The translations under genes were made by a program, and so were the position numbers. Below the pieces are notes generated by a model. That model was not told the DNA's origin, did not search any database, and saw only the letters and a program-made list of their open reading frames with translations. A DNA stretch of 64,000 nucleotides from Micromonospora radicis (GTDB taxonomy: Bacteria; Actinomycetota; Actinomycetes; Mycobacteriales; Micromonosporaceae), in contig NZ_QXEC01000007.1 of assembly GCF_003583405.1 (NCBI RefSeq), forward strand, positions 62,001-126,000, written 5' to 3'. Shown here one piece after another: positions 42,343 to 62,000 of the stretch; position 1 is the stretch's first letter; each line of letters begins with the position of its first letter.

Positions 42343-42353
42343 ACGTCAGATGT
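42343..42353. promoter_or_regulatory. ACATCNGATGT-type site, one mismatch
   Basis: ACGTCAGATGT, one base off the island operator consensus, between the M36 terminator and the duplicated promoter at 42402. Confidence 0.55.
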
Positions 42354-42401
42354 ATTGATGCCGGGTATCCCCCCAAGGCGGACATCGATGCCGATCTGCC
42401 A

Positions 42402-42450
42402 TTGCCTACCCCGACCCGCCGGAGTAACCTTCCCGCAACACATCAGATGT
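42402..42450 (+). promoter_or_regulatory. Promoter-operator unit, copy 1 of an 80-bp direct repeat
   Basis: TTGCCT (42402-42407), 17-base spacer, TAACCT (42425-42430), then the exact palindrome ACATCAGATGT (42440-42450) at the expected transcription start. The block 42400-42480 repeats at 43575-43655 with few changes; -35, spacing, -10 and operator offset are identical. Confidence 0.75.
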
Positions 42451-42481
42451 CTCATCCGATTCGAGGTGCTGCCATGCGGTT

Positions 42482-43399
42482 ATGTCACCGGACCCCACCC
42501 GCCCGGGTCGCCGCATCTCCGGCCCGCCGCCGGTTTCCGGTCGCTGGACACTGACGGCCAGCACCGTGTCGACCGCCGGCACCTCCCCGCATCCTCTCAC
42601 CCCGGACCAGGCCCGCGGACTGCTCGTCGCCCAACTGGGACCGCGCGCCGACCTCGATCACGCCACCACCGAGCGGCTCGTGGCGTTCTGCGCCGGCCTA
42701 CCGCTGGCGATCAACCTCGCCGCCGCCCACCTGCGTCGTCGTCCCGACCAGTCGGTCGCCGCGCTCACCGCGGACCTCGACCGGGCGGTTCACCGGTTTC
42801 CCGGGCTGGCCGGGCAGGAACTGGCGGCGGCCGCCACCTTCGACCTGTCCTATCGCGACCTGCCCGCCAGCCGGCAGCGGCTGCTGCGGTATCTCGGTCT
42901 GCATCCCGGCCCGGACTTCGATGCCGCCGCGGCCGCCGCGCTGGGGAATCTCACCCTGGTCCGCGCCCGTGAGGGCCTGAACGCCCTCCGGAGCGCCCAA
43001 CTGCTCATCGAGCGTGGCGACCGCTACCGCTTCCCCGAGTCGGTCGTCCCGTACGCCCGCGGGCTGGCCGCGGCCGAGCCTGCGGCCAACCGCGAAGCCG
43101 CCCTGCACCGGCTCGCGCACCAGCGGGGGGCCGCCCCGACCACGGATCCGGCCGACACCCGACGCGAGCCGTCCACCGCCGGCCCGGCCACGGCGCGCCA
43201 CGAGCCGCCCACCGGCACCGGCCGGAGCAGTCGCCGCGACGCGGCTCCCACCGACCCGGCCGGCGGCCGGCGCGGCTCGGCCGCCACTGGCGGACCGGAG
43301 GCTCGGCGCACGGGCAGTTCCCCGCGCAACGTCGTCGACCTGCACGAGGCCGGCCCGGACACCGTCCGGCAGCCCCGGGCTCGTCGCCGCCGACACTGA
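42482..43399 (+). CDS. NB-ARC (AfsR/SARP-type) regulator fragment
   Basis: Up to 305 aa; the start is uncertain. The middle matches the C-terminal part of an NB-ARC module: LVAFCAGLPLAINLAAAHLRRR contains the GLPL motif, followed by AALTADLDR and FDLSYRDLPASRQRLLRYLGLHPGPDF (winged-helix part). Walker A, Walker B and any DNA-binding domain are missing, and TPRs expected downstream are replaced by a low-complexity Arg/Pro/Thr tail from about residue 205. It is most likely a relic trapped between two copies of the GH95 promoter-operator; it could still be expressed from copy 1. Confidence 0.6.
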   Translation: MSPDPTRPGRRISGPPPVSGRWTLTASTVSTAGTSPHPLTPDQARGLLVAQLGPRADLDHATTERLVAFCAGLPLAINLAAAHLRRRPDQSVAALTADLDRAVHRFPGLAGQELAAAATFDLSYRDLPASRQRLLRYLGLHPGPDFDAAAAAALGNLTLVRAREGLNALRSAQLLIERGDRYRFPESVVPYARGLAAAEPAANREAALHRLAHQRGAAPTTDPADTRREPSTAGPATARHEPPTGTGRSSRRDAAPTDPAGGRRGSAATGGPEARRTGSSPRNVVDLHEAGPDTVRQPRARRRRH

Positions 43400-43403
43400 T
43401 CGT

Positions 43404-43420
43404 GATACATCCGATGTATC
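43404..43420. promoter_or_regulatory. 17-bp perfect palindrome, extended island operator
   Basis: GATACATCCGATGTATC contains the exact ACATCNGATGT core (43407-43417). It lies just after the NB-ARC fragment and about 170 bp upstream of the GH95 promoter, so could loop with the site at 43615. The rest of the 43400-43831 gap shows no gene besides the promoter at 43577. Confidence 0.75.
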
Positions 43421-43576
43421 TGCGGGCCTGACCTGGGCGCCGCTCCGCCGCGACCGCCGGTTGGCCGGCACCACCCGTCGTCGCCGACGGCGCCCTCGCA
43501 CTGAGCGCCGGTCAGCCCGCGACGCCCACCTCCGGCATCAACCTCAGGCGAGCCCGACGAGGGCTTGAATCAACCA

Positions 43577-43625
43577 TTGCCTATTCCGTCACGCCGGAGT
43601 AACCTTCGCGCAACACATCAGATGT
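43577..43625 (+). promoter_or_regulatory. GH95 promoter-operator unit, copy 2 of the direct repeat
   Basis: TTGCCT (43577-43582), 17-base spacer, TAACCT (43600-43605), exact ACATCAGATGT at 43615-43625. About 205 nt of untranslated leader precede the GH95 start. Confidence 0.78.
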
Positions 43626-43831
43626 CTGAGCGTTCGAGGGGCTGCCACGCGGCCTTCCTGGACCCCAGCGCGCCACCGTCGCCACCCGCTTCACCACCCC
43701 ATGTTCCGAGACGGGGTCGACGGGCGCCCCACCCCCGCGCGGCAACCGGTGCAGCCACGACGCTCCCCACCCCGACATCTGCCCCGCACAGTTCTTCGGG
43801 TGGCCGGGAACGGCCACCGTTTGGAGGATCG

Positions 43832-46828
43832 ATGTCAGACGTGACGCGACGGCAGGCGCTCAAGATGGGAGCAGCCGGCGCCGGCGGTGCGCTGTTGCCG
43901 GTTCCCTGGACCGCCATGGCCCGAGCCGACTCGGTGGCGCCACCACAGGTGCTGGCCGCCAACGACCTGGCACTCTGGTACGACCGGTCCGCCGGTACCG
44001 ACTGGCTGCGGGCGTTGCCGATCGGCAACGGACGCCTCGGCGCCATGGTGTTCGGCAACGTCGATGCCGAACGCCTGCAGCTCAACGAGGACACGGTCTG
44101 GGCCGGCGGACCGCACGACCCGAGCAACACCAGAGGTCTGGCGGCGCTGCCGGAGATCCGGCGGCTGGTCTTCGCCAACCAGTGGACCCAGGCACAAAAC
44201 CTGATCAACCAGAACATGCTCGGCAACCCGGTCGGGCAGCTGGCGTACCAGACCGTCGGCAACCTGCGGCTCACCTTCCCCTCGGGCACCGCGTCGCAGT
44301 ACAACCGCCAGTTGGACCTCACCACCGCCATCACCAGCGTCAGCTACGTGCTGAACGGCGTGCGTTACCAGCGGGAGGTCTTCGCCAGCGCACCCGACCA
44401 GGTCATCGCGATGCGGCTCACCGCGGACCGGACGGGTTCGATCAGCTTCACCGCCACCTTCGACAGTCCGCAGCGGACCACCGTCTCCAGCCCCGACGGC
44501 AGCACGATCGGCCTCGACGGGGTCTCCGGCAACCAGGAGGGCGTCACCGGCGCGGTCCGCTTCCTGGCGCTGGCCAGCGCGGTCGTCAGCGGTGGCAGCG
44601 TCACCAGTTCCGCGGGCACCCTGCGGGTCACCAACGCCAACAGCGTCACCCTGCTGATCTCGATCGGCTCCAGCTACGTGAACTACCGCAACGTCGGCGG
44701 CGACTACCAGGGCATCGCCCGCCGCCACCTGACGGCCGCCCGGGGCGTCGCCTACGACCAGCTGCGCGCCCGGCACGTCTCGGACTACCAGGCGCTGTTC
44801 GGTCGGGTGAACCTCGACCTCGGCCGCACGGCCGCCGCCGACCAGCCCACCGACGTACGCATCTCGCAGCACAACAACGTCAACGACCCGCAGTTCTCCG
44901 CGCTGCTGTTCCAGTTCGGCCGGTACCTGCTGATCTCCTCGTCCCGACCCGGCACCCAACCGGCCAACCTCCAGGGCATCTGGAACGACTCGCTGACCCC
45001 GGCCTGGGACTCGAAGTACACCATCAACGCCAACCTGCCGATGAACTACTGGCCGGCCAACACCACCAACCTGTCCGAGTGCCACGCCCCGGTCTTCGAC
45101 ATGATCAGGGATCTCGCGGTCAGCGGGGCGCGTACCGCCCAGGTGCAGTACGGCGCCGGCGGCTGGGTCACCCACCACAACACCGACGCCTGGCGGGCCA
45201 CCTCGGTGGTCGACGGGGCCTTCTGGGGCATGTGGCAGACCGGTGGCGCCTGGCTGGCCACGCTGATCTGGGATCACTACCTGTTCACCGGCGACGTCGA
45301 GTTCCTGCGCGCCAACTACCCGGCGATGAAGGGTGCCGCCCAGTTCTTCCTCGACACGTTGGTCACCGAACCGACGCTCGGCTACCTGGTGACCAACCCG
45401 TCGAACTCGCCGGAGATCGGCCACCACGCCGACGCCAGTGTCTGCGCCGGGCCGACCATGGACAACCAGATCCTGCGGGACCTGTTCGACGGGTGCGCCC
45501 GGGCCAGCGAGATCCTCAATGTGGACAGCACCTTCCGGGCCCAGGTCCGCGCCACCCGGGACCGCCTGGCGCCGAACCGTATCGGTTCGCGGGGCAACAT
45601 CATGGAGTGGCTCTACGACTGGACCGAGACCGAGCGCACCCACCGGCACATCTCGCACCTGTACGGCCTGGCGCCCAGCAACCAGATCACCAGGCGCGGT
45701 ACGCCACAACTGTTCGAGGCGGCCCGCCGGACCCTGGAGATCCGCGGCGACGACGGCACCGGCTGGTCCCTCGCCTGGAAGATCAACTTCTGGGCGCGGA
45801 TGGAGGAGGGCAACCGGGCGCACGACCTGATCCGCTTCCTGGCCACCCCCGCCCGCCTCGCCCCCAACATGTTCGACCTGCACCCCCCGTTCCAGATCGA
45901 CGGCAACTTCGGCGCCACCGCCGGCGTCGCCGAGATGCTGCTGCAGAGCCACGCCGGGGAGCTGCACCTGCTGCCCGCCCTGCCGGCGGCCTGGCCGACC
46001 GGCCAGGTGAGCGGGTTGCGGGCGCGGGGCGGGTACACCGTCGGGGTGGCCTGGAGCAGCGGTCAGGCCACCGAGATCCTGGTCCGGCCGGACCGGGCCG
46101 GCACCGTCCGGCTGCGTAGCCGGCTGTTCACCGGTAACCACAGCGTGGTCGACGTCGCCGACGGCTCGGTGCCGCGCACCACCCGGCTGGCGACCGACCT
46201 CGTCGAGGTCACCGTGCAGGCCGGTCGCACCTACCGGGTCACGCCCTCCGGCGGCGGCACCACGCCGACGTTGGAGCAGAGCTTCACCAACGTCAGCACC
46301 ACCAACGACACCAACACCGGTGCCGGCAACTTCGACGGCAACGGGGCCACCCTCTCCGCGCAGGCGCTGGCGCAGGCCGGGGTCACTCCGGGAGCCACCG
46401 TCAGCCGCAACGGGGTGAACTTCCGCTGGCCCAACGTGGCACCGGGCGGTGCCGACAACGCCATCGCCTCGGGACAGTCGATCAGCGTGACCGGCACCGG
46501 CCGTACGCTCGGTTTCCTGGCCACCGGCACGTACGGCGCCGTGTCGGGCACCGGCACGGTGGTGTACGCCGACGGGACGCGGCAGTCGTTCACGCTCAGC
46601 ACCCCCGACTGGTACGGCGGGCCGCACTCCGGCGGCACGGCGGCGGTGGTGATGCAGTACCAGAACCGGCCCGGCAACCAGCGGGTGACGACGCCGGCCT
46701 GCGTCTACTACGTCGGCGTGGCGCTGCAGAACAAGGCGGTGGCCCGGGTCGAGCTGCCCAACATCAGCGCCCGGCCGGCGGCGGGCGTGCCGACGATGCA
46801 CGTCTTCGCCATCGCGATCGGCGCCTGA
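43832..46828 (+). CDS. Exported GH95 alpha-L-fucosidase
   Basis: 998 aa. Twin-arginine signal (TRRQALKMGAAGAGGALL). The GH95 architecture follows: N-terminal beta domain (LWYDRSAGTDWLRALPIGNGRLGAMVFG), then the helical barrel with the proposed catalytic residues: Asn pair in INANLPMNYWPAN, acid Glu in GNIMEWLYDW, Asp in FQIDGNFGATAGVAEMLLQSH. A C-terminal beta domain (about 815-998, LEQSFTNVSTTND to HVFAIAIG) is of the accessory type seen in secreted actinobacterial hydrolases. It releases terminal L-fucose from glycans (classically alpha-1,2), or L-galactose. The ATG follows GGAGG. Operators at 43407 and 43615 place it in the fucose regulon. Confidence 0.94.
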   Translation: MSDVTRRQALKMGAAGAGGALLPVPWTAMARADSVAPPQVLAANDLALWYDRSAGTDWLRALPIGNGRLGAMVFGNVDAERLQLNEDTVWAGGPHDPSNTRGLAALPEIRRLVFANQWTQAQNLINQNMLGNPVGQLAYQTVGNLRLTFPSGTASQYNRQLDLTTAITSVSYVLNGVRYQREVFASAPDQVIAMRLTADRTGSISFTATFDSPQRTTVSSPDGSTIGLDGVSGNQEGVTGAVRFLALASAVVSGGSVTSSAGTLRVTNANSVTLLISIGSSYVNYRNVGGDYQGIARRHLTAARGVAYDQLRARHVSDYQALFGRVNLDLGRTAAADQPTDVRISQHNNVNDPQFSALLFQFGRYLLISSSRPGTQPANLQGIWNDSLTPAWDSKYTINANLPMNYWPANTTNLSECHAPVFDMIRDLAVSGARTAQVQYGAGGWVTHHNTDAWRATSVVDGAFWGMWQTGGAWLATLIWDHYLFTGDVEFLRANYPAMKGAAQFFLDTLVTEPTLGYLVTNPSNSPEIGHHADASVCAGPTMDNQILRDLFDGCARASEILNVDSTFRAQVRATRDRLAPNRIGSRGNIMEWLYDWTETERTHRHISHLYGLAPSNQITRRGTPQLFEAARRTLEIRGDDGTGWSLAWKINFWARMEEGNRAHDLIRFLATPARLAPNMFDLHPPFQIDGNFGATAGVAEMLLQSHAGELHLLPALPAAWPTGQVSGLRARGGYTVGVAWSSGQATEILVRPDRAGTVRLRSRLFTGNHSVVDVADGSVPRTTRLATDLVEVTVQAGRTYRVTPSGGGTTPTLEQSFTNVSTTNDTNTGAGNFDGNGATLSAQALAQAGVTPGATVSRNGVNFRWPNVAPGGADNAIASGQSISVTGTGRTLGFLATGTYGAVSGTGTVVYADGTRQSFTLSTPDWYGGPHSGGTAAVVMQYQNRPGNQRVTTPACVYYVGVALQNKAVARVELPNISARPAAGVPTMHVFAIAIGA

Positions 46829-46965: not shown

Positions 46966-48360
46966 TCAGATCGCGGCGATGCTCCACTGCAGGTTGGCGC
47001 TGCCGTCGGGCGCCCACAACTTGACGCGGGAGCCGACGGTGCTGTCACCACCGCTGTCCAACGCGGTGCCGGTGCCCCGGTTGATGATCTGGTAGCGGTC
47101 GTTGCCCAGGCTGTTCAGCCGCCACTGCTGGTTGACGTGACCGTTCCACGGCGCCTGTACGGCGGTGGCGCCGTTGCTGGCGTCACCCCAGCTGTCGGCC
47201 ACCATGCCGTTGGTCCGGTTGACCAGCCGGTAGAAGCCACCGCCGGAGTCCACCAGTTGCCAGTGCAGGTTGGTGTTCCCGTTGTAGGTCCACTGCTTGA
47301 GCATCGACTGGGTGGGTACGGTTCCGCCGCTGTCCAGCCCGAGGCCGGTGGCGACGTTGGTGATGCGGGCCCAGCCGGTGGGGATACCGCCGTTGCCGGG
47401 CGGCGGGGTGCTGCCGCCGAACTGGGTGAAGAAGTTCCAGGTCTCGCCGGGCAGCCAGGTACGCGAGCCGCTGTCACCGGGAGCGCCGTCCTGCGGGGCG
47501 GCGATGTGCCCGCCGTCGAAGGCGGCCCAGGTCACCGGGTAGCCGGACCGGCAGCCGGAGTAGGTGGTGGTGCGGTGCGTGAGGCTGCCCTGGGCCGGCT
47601 CCGGCGGGTTCTGGGCGGTGCAGCCGTTGTTGCGGACGAACCGGTCGCGCAGGGCCCGACCGGTGGCGATGTTGTCGCTGATGCCGTGCGCACCGAAGTA
47701 GGCGATCGGCTGGGTGCCGCCGCTGCATCCGCTCAGCTCGCGGGGTGCGCCGTAGACGGCGACCGCGCGGAACACGGTGGGCCGGGCACAGGCGAGTGCG
47801 TAGCTCATCGCGCCGCCGTAGCTGAAGCCGACGGCGAAGCGCTGCGTCGTCTCGACGCAGAGGGCCTGTTCGATCTGACGGATCATGTCGTCGACGAAGG
47901 TGACGTCCTCGCCGCCGGCGTTGGCCCAGCCGTTGCTGATGCCCTGCGGCGCCACGAAGATGGCGCTGTTGTTCGCCAGCCGCTGCAGCCCGTAGTAGGA
48001 CCAGACGTCGCGTTGCACGGTCTGTCCGGTGGCCACGTCGGTGGCGGTGCCACCCCACCAGTGGAATCCGAAGATCAACCGGTAGGGGTTGTTCTGCTGG
48101 TAGTTGTCGGGCACCCGCAGGATGTAGCTGCGGCTCTTGCCGCCGCTCTGGATGGTGTGCGTACCACTGCCCAGCCCTGGTGCCCGACCGCAGCCGGCGG
48201 TCGCGGCGAGGGTGCCGACGTCGGCGACGGCGACGGTGCCGGCCTGGGCGGCCGTGCCGGCGGTGCCGGGGTTACCGGCCAGGGTCGTGGCGACCATGGT
48301 CAGGGCCAGTGCGGTGGCTCCGAGGGCGAGCGGTGCGAGGAAGCCTCTGCGTCGCGGCAT
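46966..48360 (-). CDS. Secreted PHB-depolymerase/feruloyl-esterase-like enzyme with C-terminal ricin domain
   Basis: 464 aa. Signal peptide (basic MPRRR, hydrophobic core). An alpha/beta-hydrolase follows, of the LpqC / poly(3-hydroxybutyrate) depolymerase family also containing CE1 feruloyl and acetylxylan esterases: SYILRVPDNYQQNNPYRLIFGFHWWGG, nucleophile GFSYGGAMS, ISDNIATG, and a His in FDGGHIAAP. The last about 135 residues are a beta-trefoil carbohydrate-binding domain almost the same in pattern as that of the GH29 enzyme. It probably removes acyl groups from plant or microbial glycans. Translation appears coupled to a 16-residue leader ORF. Confidence 0.88.
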   Translation of the reverse strand: MPRRRGFLAPLALGATALALTMVATTLAGNPGTAGTAAQAGTVAVADVGTLAATAGCGRAPGLGSGTHTIQSGGKSRSYILRVPDNYQQNNPYRLIFGFHWWGGTATDVATGQTVQRDVWSYYGLQRLANNSAIFVAPQGISNGWANAGGEDVTFVDDMIRQIEQALCVETTQRFAVGFSYGGAMSYALACARPTVFRAVAVYGAPRELSGCSGGTQPIAYFGAHGISDNIATGRALRDRFVRNNGCTAQNPPEPAQGSLTHRTTTYSGCRSGYPVTWAAFDGGHIAAPQDGAPGDSGSRTWLPGETWNFFTQFGGSTPPPGNGGIPTGWARITNVATGLGLDSGGTVPTQSMLKQWTYNGNTNLHWQLVDSGGGFYRLVNRTNGMVADSWGDASNGATAVQAPWNGHVNQQWRLNSLGNDRYQIINRGTGTALDSGGDSTVGSRVKLWAPDGSANLQWSIAAI

Positions 48361-48410
48361 CACGCGGCTCCTCTCGACTCGGTCGGGTGCGGGAACGATC
48401 GCAGGCGCAT
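48360..48410 (-). CDS. 16-residue leader peptide coupled to the esterase gene
   Basis: The minus strand shows GGAAGGAGATCCAC then ATG (48408-48410), encoding MRLRSFPHPTESRGAA and stopping at TGA 48360-48362, which shares its A with the esterase ATG. The ribosome binding site is as good as any in the region. There is no run of a single amino acid that would suggest classical attenuation; translational coupling is the simplest role. Confidence 0.5.
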   Translation of the reverse strand: MRLRSFPHPTESRGAA

Positions 48411-48870
48411 GTGGATCTCCTTCCGCGTCGGGATCGACGCGTGGACGGTGCGGTGCACCGTCGGTGGTGGTGGCGGCGGGGTGTGGCCCGCCGTTTGCGG
48501 AGCGGTCCGAGCGGATGGCTCGCGTCGGTCGGCGGCCGGGGCCGGCGAGGGGACGGTGGGACGCGGCGTGCACGTGGTCGGACAGCTCAGCGAGAGGTGG
48601 GTCTTCCTCCCTTCCTCCGCGGGCGCGCGGTCGTACCGGCCGGTGGGCACGGCGCGGTACGGCGTGGGCCGGCGAGATGACGCGGTGACGGCAGGGTCGA
48701 CCGCAGCCCGGTGTCCCGGAGGTGCGCGACCGATGTTGCTGCCACTCGGCACCGGCCGTGGCCCGCGGTGGCGGTTGCCCCGCGGACCGACGGCGTCCGG
48801 CGTCGAGGAATACGGAAGTGTCCTCAGCGGATCCGCTGGATGCCGGAGGCGCCCATCACTCCCATCCCGA
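48411..48870 (-). other. Long untranslated leader region of the esterase gene
   Basis: About 460 bp between the predicted promoter (48871-48899) and the leader peptide. No family-like protein is seen in either strand; an open minus-strand frame here is Pro/Thr/Arg low complexity. It may be a structured 5' leader, or a closer promoter may have been missed. Confidence 0.4.
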
Positions 48871-48899
48871 AAGATATCGGGTTAGCGATAACATTACAA
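48871..48899 (-). promoter_or_regulatory. Predicted promoter with LacI-like operator upstream of the esterase gene
   Basis: The minus strand has TTGTAA (48894-48899), a 17-base spacer and TATCTT (48871-48876). The spacer contains GTTAGCGATAAC (48881-48892), matching the GTTANCGNTAAC palindrome also found in the GH27 promoter. Confidence 0.6.
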
Positions 48900-49008: not shown

Positions 49009-49770
49009 TCAGCGCGCCAGCCAACCGCCGTCGACCGGGATGACGGTGCCGTGCACGTAGGCGGCGGCGTCGGAGGCGAGGAACACGGTGGCACCGGCGA
49101 TGTCCTCGGGGCGGCCCCACCGACCGGCCGGGATCCGCTCCAGGATCGACCGGTTGCGTTCCGGCTGCTCCCGAAGGGCCTGGGTGTTGTCGGTGCTGAT
49201 GTAGCCGGGGGCGATCGCGTTGACGTTGACCCCGTGCGGCGCCCACTCGTTGGCCAACGCCCGGGTCAGACCGGCGATGCCGGACTTCGCCGCGGCGTAC
49301 CCGGGCACCGTCACGCCACCCTGGAAGCTCAACATCGACGCGGTGAAGATGATCTTGCCGCTGCCCCGCCGGATCATGTCCCGGCCCAGCTCGCGCGCGA
49401 GCACGAACGGCGCGGACAGGTCGACCTCCAGCACGTGGTCCCAGTCCTCGTCGCCGTGCTCGGCAGCCGGCGCCCGACGGATCGTGCCGGCGTTGTTGAC
49501 CAGGATGTCGACCGGCCGGTCCCGCTCACCGAGCCAGCCGGCGAGCTCGCGGACGACCTGCCGGTCGGACAGGTCGGCCTGGTACGGCACGAACGTACGC
49601 CCGTGCGCCGCCACCCGTTCGGCGACGGCACTCCCGCTGGCCTCCAGCGACGCGCTCACGCCGATCACGTCGGCGCCGGCCGCCGCCAGCGCCTCCGCCA
49701 TGGCCAGGCCGATGCCACGCCGGCAGCCGGTCACCACGGCCAGCCGGCCGGACAGGTCGAACGGGTTCAC
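49009..49770 (-). CDS. SDR-family sugar (acid) dehydrogenase
   Basis: 253 aa classical short-chain dehydrogenase, close in pattern to KduD-type 2-deoxygluconate/2-keto-3-deoxy-sugar-acid dehydrogenases. Motifs: TGCRRGIGLAMAEAL (cofactor glycine motif), DILVNNAGTIRRAP, FTASMLSFQGG (Ser), YAAAKSG (Tyr/Lys), PGYISTDNTQALRE. In a fucose setting the best fit is oxidation of 2-keto-3-deoxy-L-fuconate to the 2,4-diketo acid; L-fucose dehydrogenase is the alternative. The GTG overlaps the stop of the alcohol dehydrogenase gene (GTGA). It is last of the four-gene operon AKR-mutarotase-ADH-SDR. Confidence 0.87.
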   Translation of the reverse strand: MNPFDLSGRLAVVTGCRRGIGLAMAEALAAAGADVIGVSASLEASGSAVAERVAAHGRTFVPYQADLSDRQVVRELAGWLGERDRPVDILVNNAGTIRRAPAAEHGDEDWDHVLEVDLSAPFVLARELGRDMIRRGSGKIIFTASMLSFQGGVTVPGYAAAKSGIAGLTRALANEWAPHGVNVNAIAPGYISTDNTQALREQPERNRSILERIPAGRWGRPEDIAGATVFLASDAAAYVHGTVIPVDGGWLAR

Positions 49771-52192: not shown

Positions 52193-52210
52193 ACATCGGA
52201 TGTCTATATA
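52193..52210. promoter_or_regulatory. Exact ACATCGGATGT operator in the divergent AKR/FadR promoter
   Basis: Palindrome 52193-52203, followed at once by TATATA (52205-52210), a likely -10 readable on either strand. Binding here would repress both the catabolic operon and the regulator's own gene. Confidence 0.72.
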
Positions 52211-52297: not shown

Positions 52298-52996
52298 GTG
52301 GCACTGACCGACGACGCGATCGCGAAGATCCGGAGCATGATCCAGACCGGCGAGTTGCCGCCCGGCACGAGGCTGCCGCCGGAACCGCAACTGGCCGCCC
52401 AGATGGGGCTGTCGCGCAGCGGGGTCCGGGAGGCGGTGAAGGTGCTGGAGTCGGCCCGGGTGCTCGACGTGCGCCGCGGCGACGGGACGTACGTCACCAG
52501 CCTCGCGCCCCGGCTGCTGCTGGAGGGGCTCGGCGTCGCGGTGGAGCTGCTGCGCGACGACACCCTGCTGGAGGTGATGGAGGTCCGGCGGATGTTGGAG
52601 CCGGTGGCGACCGGCCTGGCGGCGTTGCGGATGACCCAGGCCGAACTCGACGAGCTGGCCCAGATCCTCGAGGACATGCGGGCAGCCGCCGACGACGCCG
52701 AGAAGCTGATTCAGTTCGACGCCGCCTTCCACCACCGGGTCATCGCGACGACCGGCAACGAGACCCTCACCTCGTTGCTGGACGGGCTGTCCAGCCAGAC
52801 CCTGCGGGCCCGGGTGTGGCGCGGCCTGATCGAGGGCAACGCGGCGCACAAGACGATCGACGAGCACCACGCGATCTACCTCGCGCTGCGCTCGCGCGAC
52901 CAACTGCTCGCTCAGGCCAGCGCGCTGATGCACGTCAACACCTCGGAGGCGTGGCTGCGTACCGTGCTGGCCGCCAAGGCGGCGGAGGACGCCTAG
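52298..52996 (+). CDS. FadR-subfamily GntR regulator, proposed fucose-regulon repressor
   Basis: 232 aa. Winged helix at the N-terminus (ALTDDAIAKIRSMIQTGELPPGTRLPPEPQLAAQMGLSRSGVREAVKVLE in pieces, wing GDGTYVTSLAP), then an FCD ligand domain (about 90-225) with DAAFHHRVIATTGN and DEHHAIYLALRSRD supplying the usual Asp/His metal site. Such proteins bind sugar acids and release DNA. It is embedded between the fucose operons, and ACATCNGATGT sites flank it and its neighbours, so I infer that it binds that motif with fuconate or a derivative as inducer. The GTG follows GAAGGGGG. Confidence 0.9.
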   Translation: MALTDDAIAKIRSMIQTGELPPGTRLPPEPQLAAQMGLSRSGVREAVKVLESARVLDVRRGDGTYVTSLAPRLLLEGLGVAVELLRDDTLLEVMEVRRMLEPVATGLAALRMTQAELDELAQILEDMRAAADDAEKLIQFDAAFHHRVIATTGNETLTSLLDGLSSQTLRARVWRGLIEGNAAHKTIDEHHAIYLALRSRDQLLAQASALMHVNTSEAWLRTVLAAKAAEDA

Positions 52997-55226: not shown

Positions 55227-55237
55227 ACATCTGACGT
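55227..55237. promoter_or_regulatory. ACATCNGATGT-type operator upstream of fuconate dehydratase
   Basis: ACATCTGACGT, one mismatch from consensus, between the permease stop and the dehydratase ribosome binding site. No convincing -35/-10 is seen, so it may be a roadblock site. Confidence 0.6.
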
Positions 55238-61952: not shown

Positions 61953-62000
61953 ACGTTATCGAAACGTTGCGCTTGACATCAGATGTGTTAACGCTAACAT
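61953..62000 (+). promoter_or_regulatory. GH27 promoter with two different operators
   Basis: TTGACA (61973-61978), 16-base spacer, TAACAT (61995-62000). The exact ACATCAGATGT (61976-61986) overlaps the -35; TGTTAACGCTAACA (61986-61999), a LacI-type palindrome, overlaps spacer and -10. A third palindrome ACGTT-N5-AACGT is at 61953-61967. Confidence 0.78.

Follow-up and report, generated by a model that had tools for sequence, protein, structure and literature searches.

The window, a stretch of 64,000 nucleotides from Micromonospora radicis, carries GH95 and GH29 glycosidase genes, a gene for an enolase-type sugar-acid dehydratase and a ribose-type ABC transporter, together with the features listed in Table 1. 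For the amidohydrolase of this island the only NCBIfam match was L-fuconolactonase (210 bits, below the cut-off of 400), and the SDR protein came close to KduD (330.8 bits, against a cut-off of 338.85). Sites resembling ACATCNGATGT with at most one mismatch were found 10 times in the window, compared with 0.63 expected, and the exact motif was found at only seven places in the 5.96-Mb genome, five of them inside the window. We read the window as holding a fucose island under a single GntR repressor, with a putative pathway and a presumed link between the regulator and the motif. Sugar catabolic islands regulated by GntR/FadR-type proteins are a known category; like them, the window has a GntR+FCD regulator gene preceded by the motif, a palindromic operator directly 3' of a -10 hexamer at which repressor binding is predicted, and sugar-catabolic neighbours.

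Table 1. Features of the small gene, the GH95 gene and their surroundings (positions in the window).
Feature	Coordinates	Strand	Remark
Imperfect operator ACGTCAGATGT, one mismatch, 5' of copy 1	42343..42353	+	flank unlike that of copy 2
Promoter copy 1 with the first ~50-60 nt of a GH95-type leader	42394..42498	+	read as the derived duplicate
Copy 1 -35 TTGCCT (42402-42407), 17-bp spacer, -10 TAACCT (42425-42430)	42402..42430	+	
Copy 1 operator ACATCAGATGT, immediately 3' of the -10	42440..42450	+	
Stand-alone HD1 + winged-helix gene (C-terminal half of an AfsR-type NOD)	42482..43399	+	coding support at 42593-43129
Upstream GH95 operator ACATCCGATGT, right after the small-gene stop	43407..43417	+	
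Promoter copy 2, read as the ancestral GH95 promoter	43569..43672	+	-35 43577-43582, -10 43600-43605, operator 43615-43625
GH95 gene downstream of copy 2	43832..46828	+	Pfam GH95 domains; orthologues in relatives
Esterase-like gene with ricin-type lectin	46966..48573	-	
LacI-like palindrome beside the SDR gene, three mismatches to TGTTATCGATAACA	48880..48893	-	
SDR gene of the sugar island	49009..49770	-	
GntR/FCD (FadR-type) regulator gene, presumed reader of ACATCNGATGT	52298..52996	+	motif in front, 52193-52203

The sequence-only reading had described an 80-bp promoter block that occurs twice with its elements at identical offsets. We confirmed the duplication, with a spacing of 1175 between the copies, and the offsets: TTGCCT, the 17-bp spacer, TAACCT and ACATCAGATGT are arranged identically, beginning at 42402, 42425 and 42440 in copy 1 and at 43577, 43600 and 43615 in copy 2. 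The length of 80 bp, however, was too short. An ungapped core of 59 nt (42394-42452 and 43569-43627) is identical at 52 of 59 positions (88%); 3' of it a weaker likeness continues (11 of 500 shuffles equally good) and fades at about 42498, so that each block comprises about 105 bp. We found no similarity 5' of the core, before 42394 (394 of 500 shuffles equally good), or past ~42498 (390 of 500). A gapped alignment of the copies scored 128; among 1980 size-matched pairs of segments drawn at random from the window, the highest score was 112 and the median 44. None of the seven differences in the core falls within the 23 nt of the -35, the -10 and the operator (hypergeometric P = 0.024). A scan with a strict sigma-70 consensus found a promoter at neither copy; hence, the assignment of the -35 and -10 hexamers rests on comparison between genomes. 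The -35 of copy 2 lies 255 bp from the GH95 start (43577-43832), compared with 78-227 bp in 35 other genomes.

We searched 160 Micromonospora genomes for the promoter pattern TTGCCTAN{14,18}GTARCNTTNNNGNAACACRTC, in which the spacer was free within those limits. The pattern was found in 36 genomes, once in 35 of them and twice only in the genome of the window, and the reversed control gave no match. All 37 matches spanned 43 nt, although other spacings were permitted. Thirty-six lie 78-255 bp 5' of a GH95 gene (78-227 bp for the single copies in the other 35 genomes), the exception being copy 1, which precedes GH95 by 1430 bp. When copy 1 was used as a query against the window's genome, only two places were found, copies 1 and 2 themselves. 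The pattern misses a variant in M. zingiberis, where one copy lies 5' of that genome's GH95 gene. Because the promoter is elsewhere single and always in front of GH95, we consider copy 1 to be the derived copy, a lineage-specific duplicate. An ancestral state with two promoters was considered and is ruled out by the single copy in 35 of the 36 matching genomes. Promoter duplication has two marks, homology that extends beyond the elements required by the regulator and a single copy in relatives, and both were observed. Moreover, no ACATC-type promoter was found 5' of the small gene in any of the eight relatives that carry this gene (seven by the pattern and M. zingiberis by its locus), where the sequence 5' of the gene differs from that in the window. 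The earlier proposal of promoter capture is thus supported both by the one copy in front of GH95 in 35 other genomes and by the different upstream DNA in the eight relatives.

The small gene between the two promoter copies belongs to a narrowly distributed family. In a search of 101 Micromonospora genomes with the window protein, the six best matches outside the window were short stand-alone genes, followed by full-length homologues; two matches in this search (G036 and G080) overran a stop codon at the gene end, and none did so in the search of 160 genomes. Homologues in the broad sense are common, with at least one match at E <= 0.001 in 100 of the 101 genomes, mostly long frames among the matches listed, and six in the window's own genome. 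With a profile of seven sequences, the stand-alone gene was detected in nine of 160 Micromonospora genomes, including that of the window and those of M. zingiberis, M. endophytica, M. gifhornensis, M. qiuiae and M. sonchi, at 147-182 bits; the sole other match at E <= 1e-20 was a full-length frame of 1058 aa with 77 bits. Among 354 genomes of the family, short genes were found at E <= 1e-22 in the same nine only, and the 14 other genomes with matches have frames of 669-1147 codons. The nine stand-alone proteins form one clade with support of 100/99, on a long branch. The gene between the promoter copies is evidently, on this comparison, a member of a conserved family and no debris or scar.

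Coding-type codon-position composition was observed only for residues 38-216 (42593-43129); residues 1-37 and 217-305, the latter being the last ~90 codons, are without it, and both the start codon and the tail are uncertain. An origin of the first 37 residues from GH95 leader DNA was rejected, the likeness of the copies being gone past ~42498 (390 of 500 shuffles as good). This stretch showed only weak likeness to the N-terminal DNA of the M. qiuiae and M. sonchi genes (35 and 65 of 500 shuffles as good). An ATG at 42474, with a well-spaced GAGGTG in the copy-1 leader, lies in a different frame from the small gene. The frame that it opens has 26 codons (42474-42554), and its third codon is TTA. 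TTA codons are rare in actinomycetes and often bldA-dependent.

Pfam gave no match for the window's open reading frame at E < 0.1, nor at E < 1. A profile of 54 sequences matched residues 451-643 of AfsR with an E-value of 5e-56, followed by plant NLRs and Apaf-1. In the part of PMC10936776 available to us, the AfsR NOD is given as residues 271-618; the small protein therefore corresponds to the C-terminal half of the NOD. HD1 and the winged helix are both present according to the profile, an AlphaFold2 model and Foldseek. The model has a pLDDT of 95.3, with 48 of the 54 rows of its input alignment being full-length homologues. The model fits HD1 and the winged helix of Apaf-1 (1z6t; TMq 0.82, rmsd 3.0-3.1 Å); Foldseek also gave weak matches to MarR-type folds (E 0.04-0.1). 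The view that half of an NB-ARC domain is encoded, with no P-loop, thus stands, given the match to AfsR 451-643, but the term "fragment" does not fit a conserved family. The absence of a DNA-binding domain also holds for that of the SARP type: Pfam found neither the N-terminal SARP DNA-binding domain nor the BTA domain in the frame, and a full-length relative shows Trans_reg_C and BTAD. For C-terminal TPRs there was no Pfam match; the frame ends ~90 aa past the winged helix, and those of the relatives end earlier.

The residues on which nucleotide switching depends were compared between stand-alone and full-length proteins. No P-loop of the form GxxxxGK[ST] was found in the frames of the five named relatives and G139, or, by reading, in the window's frame and the remaining two stand-alone proteins. 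Among 84,980 genomes we found 75 homologous loci by means of two short peptide patterns, which biases the full-length set towards proteins that share them; five of these loci are stand-alone, all without a P-loop. In a set of 77 loci that includes G139 and G017, a P-loop is present in 65 of 71 non-stand-alone loci, mostly ~207 residues before the winged helix, and five of the six loci without one have at most 208 codons before the match. Residues and charge were compared in a set composed of the window protein, 53 of 73 segments (five stand-alone and 48 full-length) and three more stand-alone proteins, the remaining segments having been omitted to limit its size. In the column of the winged-helix His that we take to be that of the MHD motif, all nine stand-alone proteins have Pro, whereas 47 of the 48 full-length proteins have His. 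With both the P-loop and the MHD-type His gone, the small protein should not switch by binding ATP or another nucleotide. The mean net charge of the winged helix is +2.9 in the stand-alone and -3.5 in the full-length proteins (+2 in the window protein), with a P-value of 2e-5 that is overstated, the nine stand-alone sequences being kin; the charge of HD1 is not shifted (P 0.19). The positive winged helix hints at binding of nucleic acid or of an acidic surface. Eight winged-helix positions are typical of the stand-alone clade, and the window protein has lost three of them.

The order of the genes was compared using lists for the relatives' loci that were made with a crude composition-based gene caller. 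In all eight relatives the order is SDR-(esterase)-small gene-GH95 on one strand. The small gene comes next after the SDR gene on the same strand in seven of the eight; in M. zingiberis an esterase homologue lies between the two, so that the small gene follows the esterase gene. An exact LacI-like palindrome was found 5' of the small gene in four relatives (M. qiuiae, M. sonchi, M. gifhornensis and G055); the palindrome lies 5' of the esterase gene in M. zingiberis and is degenerate in G139, and in G036 and M. endophytica the small gene directly follows the SDR gene without it. In the window, the block of small gene and GH95 has the opposite orientation with respect to SDR, next to which a palindrome of this kind remains (48880). 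The operator between the small gene and the GH95 promoter, ACATCCGATGT, has an exact counterpart in five of the eight relatives.

It had also been considered that the locus might be the scar of a larger deletion. Against this, a P-loop-less gene occupies the same place in eight other genomes that have no duplication, the gene is under purifying selection (below), and the nine proteins form one clade. That a deletion left its scar next to an intact SARP gene was rejected, there being no full-length homologue at this place in the gene lists of the eight relatives. Among full-length proteins the closest reach 77-111 bits, compared with 147-182 for the stand-alone ones, and the best of them, in G296, is a 669-codon frame at a contig end with a P-loop and no neighbour that matches a window protein. 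A joint origin of the duplication and the supposed fragment falls away, since the eight relatives have the gene without the duplication. Relatives of this kind agree with capture, because capture by an existing gene predicts exactly that. A tandem duplication of the whole 1175-bp unit may still have been the route; the DNA upstream of the two copies is dissimilar, and such a duplication would therefore need a later loss.

In a set of 30 GH95 loci taken with flanks of 1.5 kb, the small gene is present in that of the window and in seven others and absent from 22. No uninterrupted M36-GH95 junction was found in these 30 loci, with flanks too short to reach even the window's own M36, and no M36 was found in nine larger loci of relatives. 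Of the 22 loci without the gene, only that of G077 has an SDR orthologue adjacent, with an SDR-GH95 junction of 359 bp. This junction (locus L163, 9290-9675, reverse strand) contains the LacI-like TGTTAACGGTAACA, and no ACATC promoter was found in it before GH95. A short stretch, MRLVGR..., resembles the MRLTGR... start of the relatives' proteins and is perhaps a relic of the start codon.

We measured constraint on the small gene in the core shared by the nine proteins. By a simple Nei-Gojobori count over 114 shared codons, uncorrected for codon bias, dN/dS was 0.23-0.65 in all 36 pairs. In a branch test that scored only base positions with a 6-of-8 majority, 31 of 54 changes on the window branch were nonsynonymous, compared with a null mean of 39.9 and a value as low in one of 2000 replicates. 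A nonsynonymous deficit was observed on four of the nine branches at no more than 4 of 2000, and two more gave 26 and 78; the other three showed no significant codon constraint (200, 460 and 602 of 2000). These counts show, for the core only, purifying selection on the small gene overall and on the window branch. The loss of reading-frame constraint that marks a pseudogene is thus not seen in the core, and the ends of the frame look unconstrained. The small gene has changed much more quickly than the genes around it, with mean identities of 59-70% compared with 88-92%. Of the nine proteins, that of the window diverges most, with a mean of 59.3% to the others (60.4-69.5% for the rest); the window's GH95 is ordinary (89.3%), and its SDR is the lowest (88.5%). 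Given this divergence and the three lost clade-typical residues, some relaxation of constraint on the window protein is possible.

From these comparisons we propose the following history. Ancestrally, the small gene would have stood between SDR and GH95, transcribed with the SDR operon or just after it. In the lineage of the window, the block from the small gene to GH95 was probably inverted relative to SDR and the esterase gene, and once inverted, the small gene would have lost its former upstream context. About 105 bp of GH95 promoter, operator and leader would have been copied 5' of the small gene, so that both genes would share a promoter whose operator covers about +3 to +13 if transcripts begin ~7 nt past the -10. 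A GntR/FadR-type protein, the presumed repressor, would hold back transcription until its sugar ligand is present. The small protein would be half of a STAND switch, with HD1 and the winged helix kept and the P-loop and MHD-type His lost. Inversion and promoter copying, in whichever order, are the simplest account. Overall, we think it probable that a promoter replacement, with copy 1 presumably transcribed, brings a small, regulator-like and ATP-independent protein under the control of the fucose repressor, or maintains it there. The most likely function, which we put forward tentatively and at somewhat less than even confidence, is constitutive action on the fucose island as a winged-helix regulator or adaptor. 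The parts are ordinary and the arrangement is unusual, and the small family may be a new kind of regulator. It is doubtful, yet worth stating, that the family constitutes a class of nucleotide-independent regulators, made from the HD1-winged-helix half of an AfsR-type NOD, which would bind DNA or protein and regulate fucose use in some Micromonospora, the fucosidase promoter having been copied in after the inversion.

Other readings of the locus were weighed against promoter replacement. That the two promoters are alike merely through the demands of their regulator, as two members of one regulon and with no copying, is very improbable. The operator motif does recur at other genes of the island, but the likeness also includes the spacer and leader over ~105 bp, the pattern of the whole promoter occurs elsewhere in the 160 genomes only 5' of GH95, and within the window's genome a query with copy 1 recovers just the two places. 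The small gene might instead be dying after the rearrangement, with copy 1 a neutral by-product that drives nothing useful; one route would be tandem duplication of a unit of small gene and promoter, with the first small gene later lost. We regard such decay as unlikely. The window protein is indeed the most divergent of the nine and has lost three clade-typical residues, its first 37 and last ~90 codons lack coding composition, the best-spaced ATG is out of frame, and the SDR-GH95 junction of G077, which is without the core gene, indicates that the gene is dispensable. However, the core frame is open throughout and shows the codon-position signal both in HD1 and in the winged helix, nonsynonymous changes on the window branch are fewer than expected by chance (1 of 2000 as low), and the promoter elements have been spared among the differences between the copies (P = 0.024). 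Duplication of a unit also predicts a likeness upstream of the copies, which is absent unless it was lost.

A further reading concerns the protein rather than its promoter. The small protein may antagonise a large AfsR-type SARP or act as its decoy, offering it an HD1-winged-helix surface without the ATP switch and thereby tying the fucose island to the SARP. AfsR is the closest solved relative (E 5e-56), and matches to the window protein (E <= 0.001), mostly long frames among those listed, occur in 100 of 101 genomes, with six in the window's own. The available part of PMC10936776 describes restraint of the SARP domain by the NOD and TPR domains, which gives this reading a footing. The stand-alone proteins differ, however, at the eight clade-typical winged-helix positions and in charge, which fits a new surface better than mimicry. 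We consider an antagonist rather doubtful, and retain promoter replacement, with a regulator or adaptor as its product, as our preferred reading.

Several known systems share parts with the small protein. AfsR is a large SARP and a STAND/NOD regulator (PDB 8k60, 8jke) with which it shares the HD1 and winged helix of the NOD, and the NCBIfam AfsR and HaaT models match all seven stand-alone proteins tested, far below their cut-offs. Unlike AfsR, it lacks the SARP DNA-binding domain, the P-loop half of the NOD and the TPRs, and has Pro in place of the MHD-type His. It also shares the fold (TMq 0.82) of the ARC1-ARC2 part of the NB-ARC in Apaf-1 and plant NLRs; unlike them, it stands alone without a nucleotide-binding domain. 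A plant NLR has reportedly been found to bind DNA. Birth of a gene through a deletion-born fusion, by which part of a larger gene turns into an independent one, is described in the available part of PMC12803068. As in the case given there, the small gene is a piece of a larger gene that has become separate; unlike that case, the truncated form is common to nine genomes, no fusion partner was identified, and the promoter change is confined to one lineage. Our searches found no literature on the stand-alone winged-helix family, and among the matches listed there was none on a comparable actinomycete case, none on the small regulator, the operator motif or the island, and no actinomycete title for the operator strings. 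The locus shows the direction of the change: in a single lineage, a gene that was already present evidently received a copy of a regulatory cassette, and eight relatives display the unduplicated state. It also offers a natural test of what a STAND winged helix can do alone. If the small protein is a nucleotide-independent regulator, its gene would have been valuable enough for the fucosidase promoter to replace one cut off by inversion.

Further operators were observed at and beyond the island. Many relatives have a second operator ~145-220 bp 5' of the promoter-proximal one of GH95, and such recurrent pairs could allow looping. A one-mismatch operator at 55227-55237, close to where the sugar-acid dehydratase gene probably starts, is a candidate for an internal operon promoter. 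The only two exact operators outside the window are at C1:504397 (L001) and C5:12030 (L002), the former sitting right before an ATG with a signal-peptide-like start. At 61976-61999, 5' of a gene for Melibiase_2 with a lectin, the operator ACATCAGATGT overlaps the LacI-like TGTTAACGCTAACA, which suggests double control.
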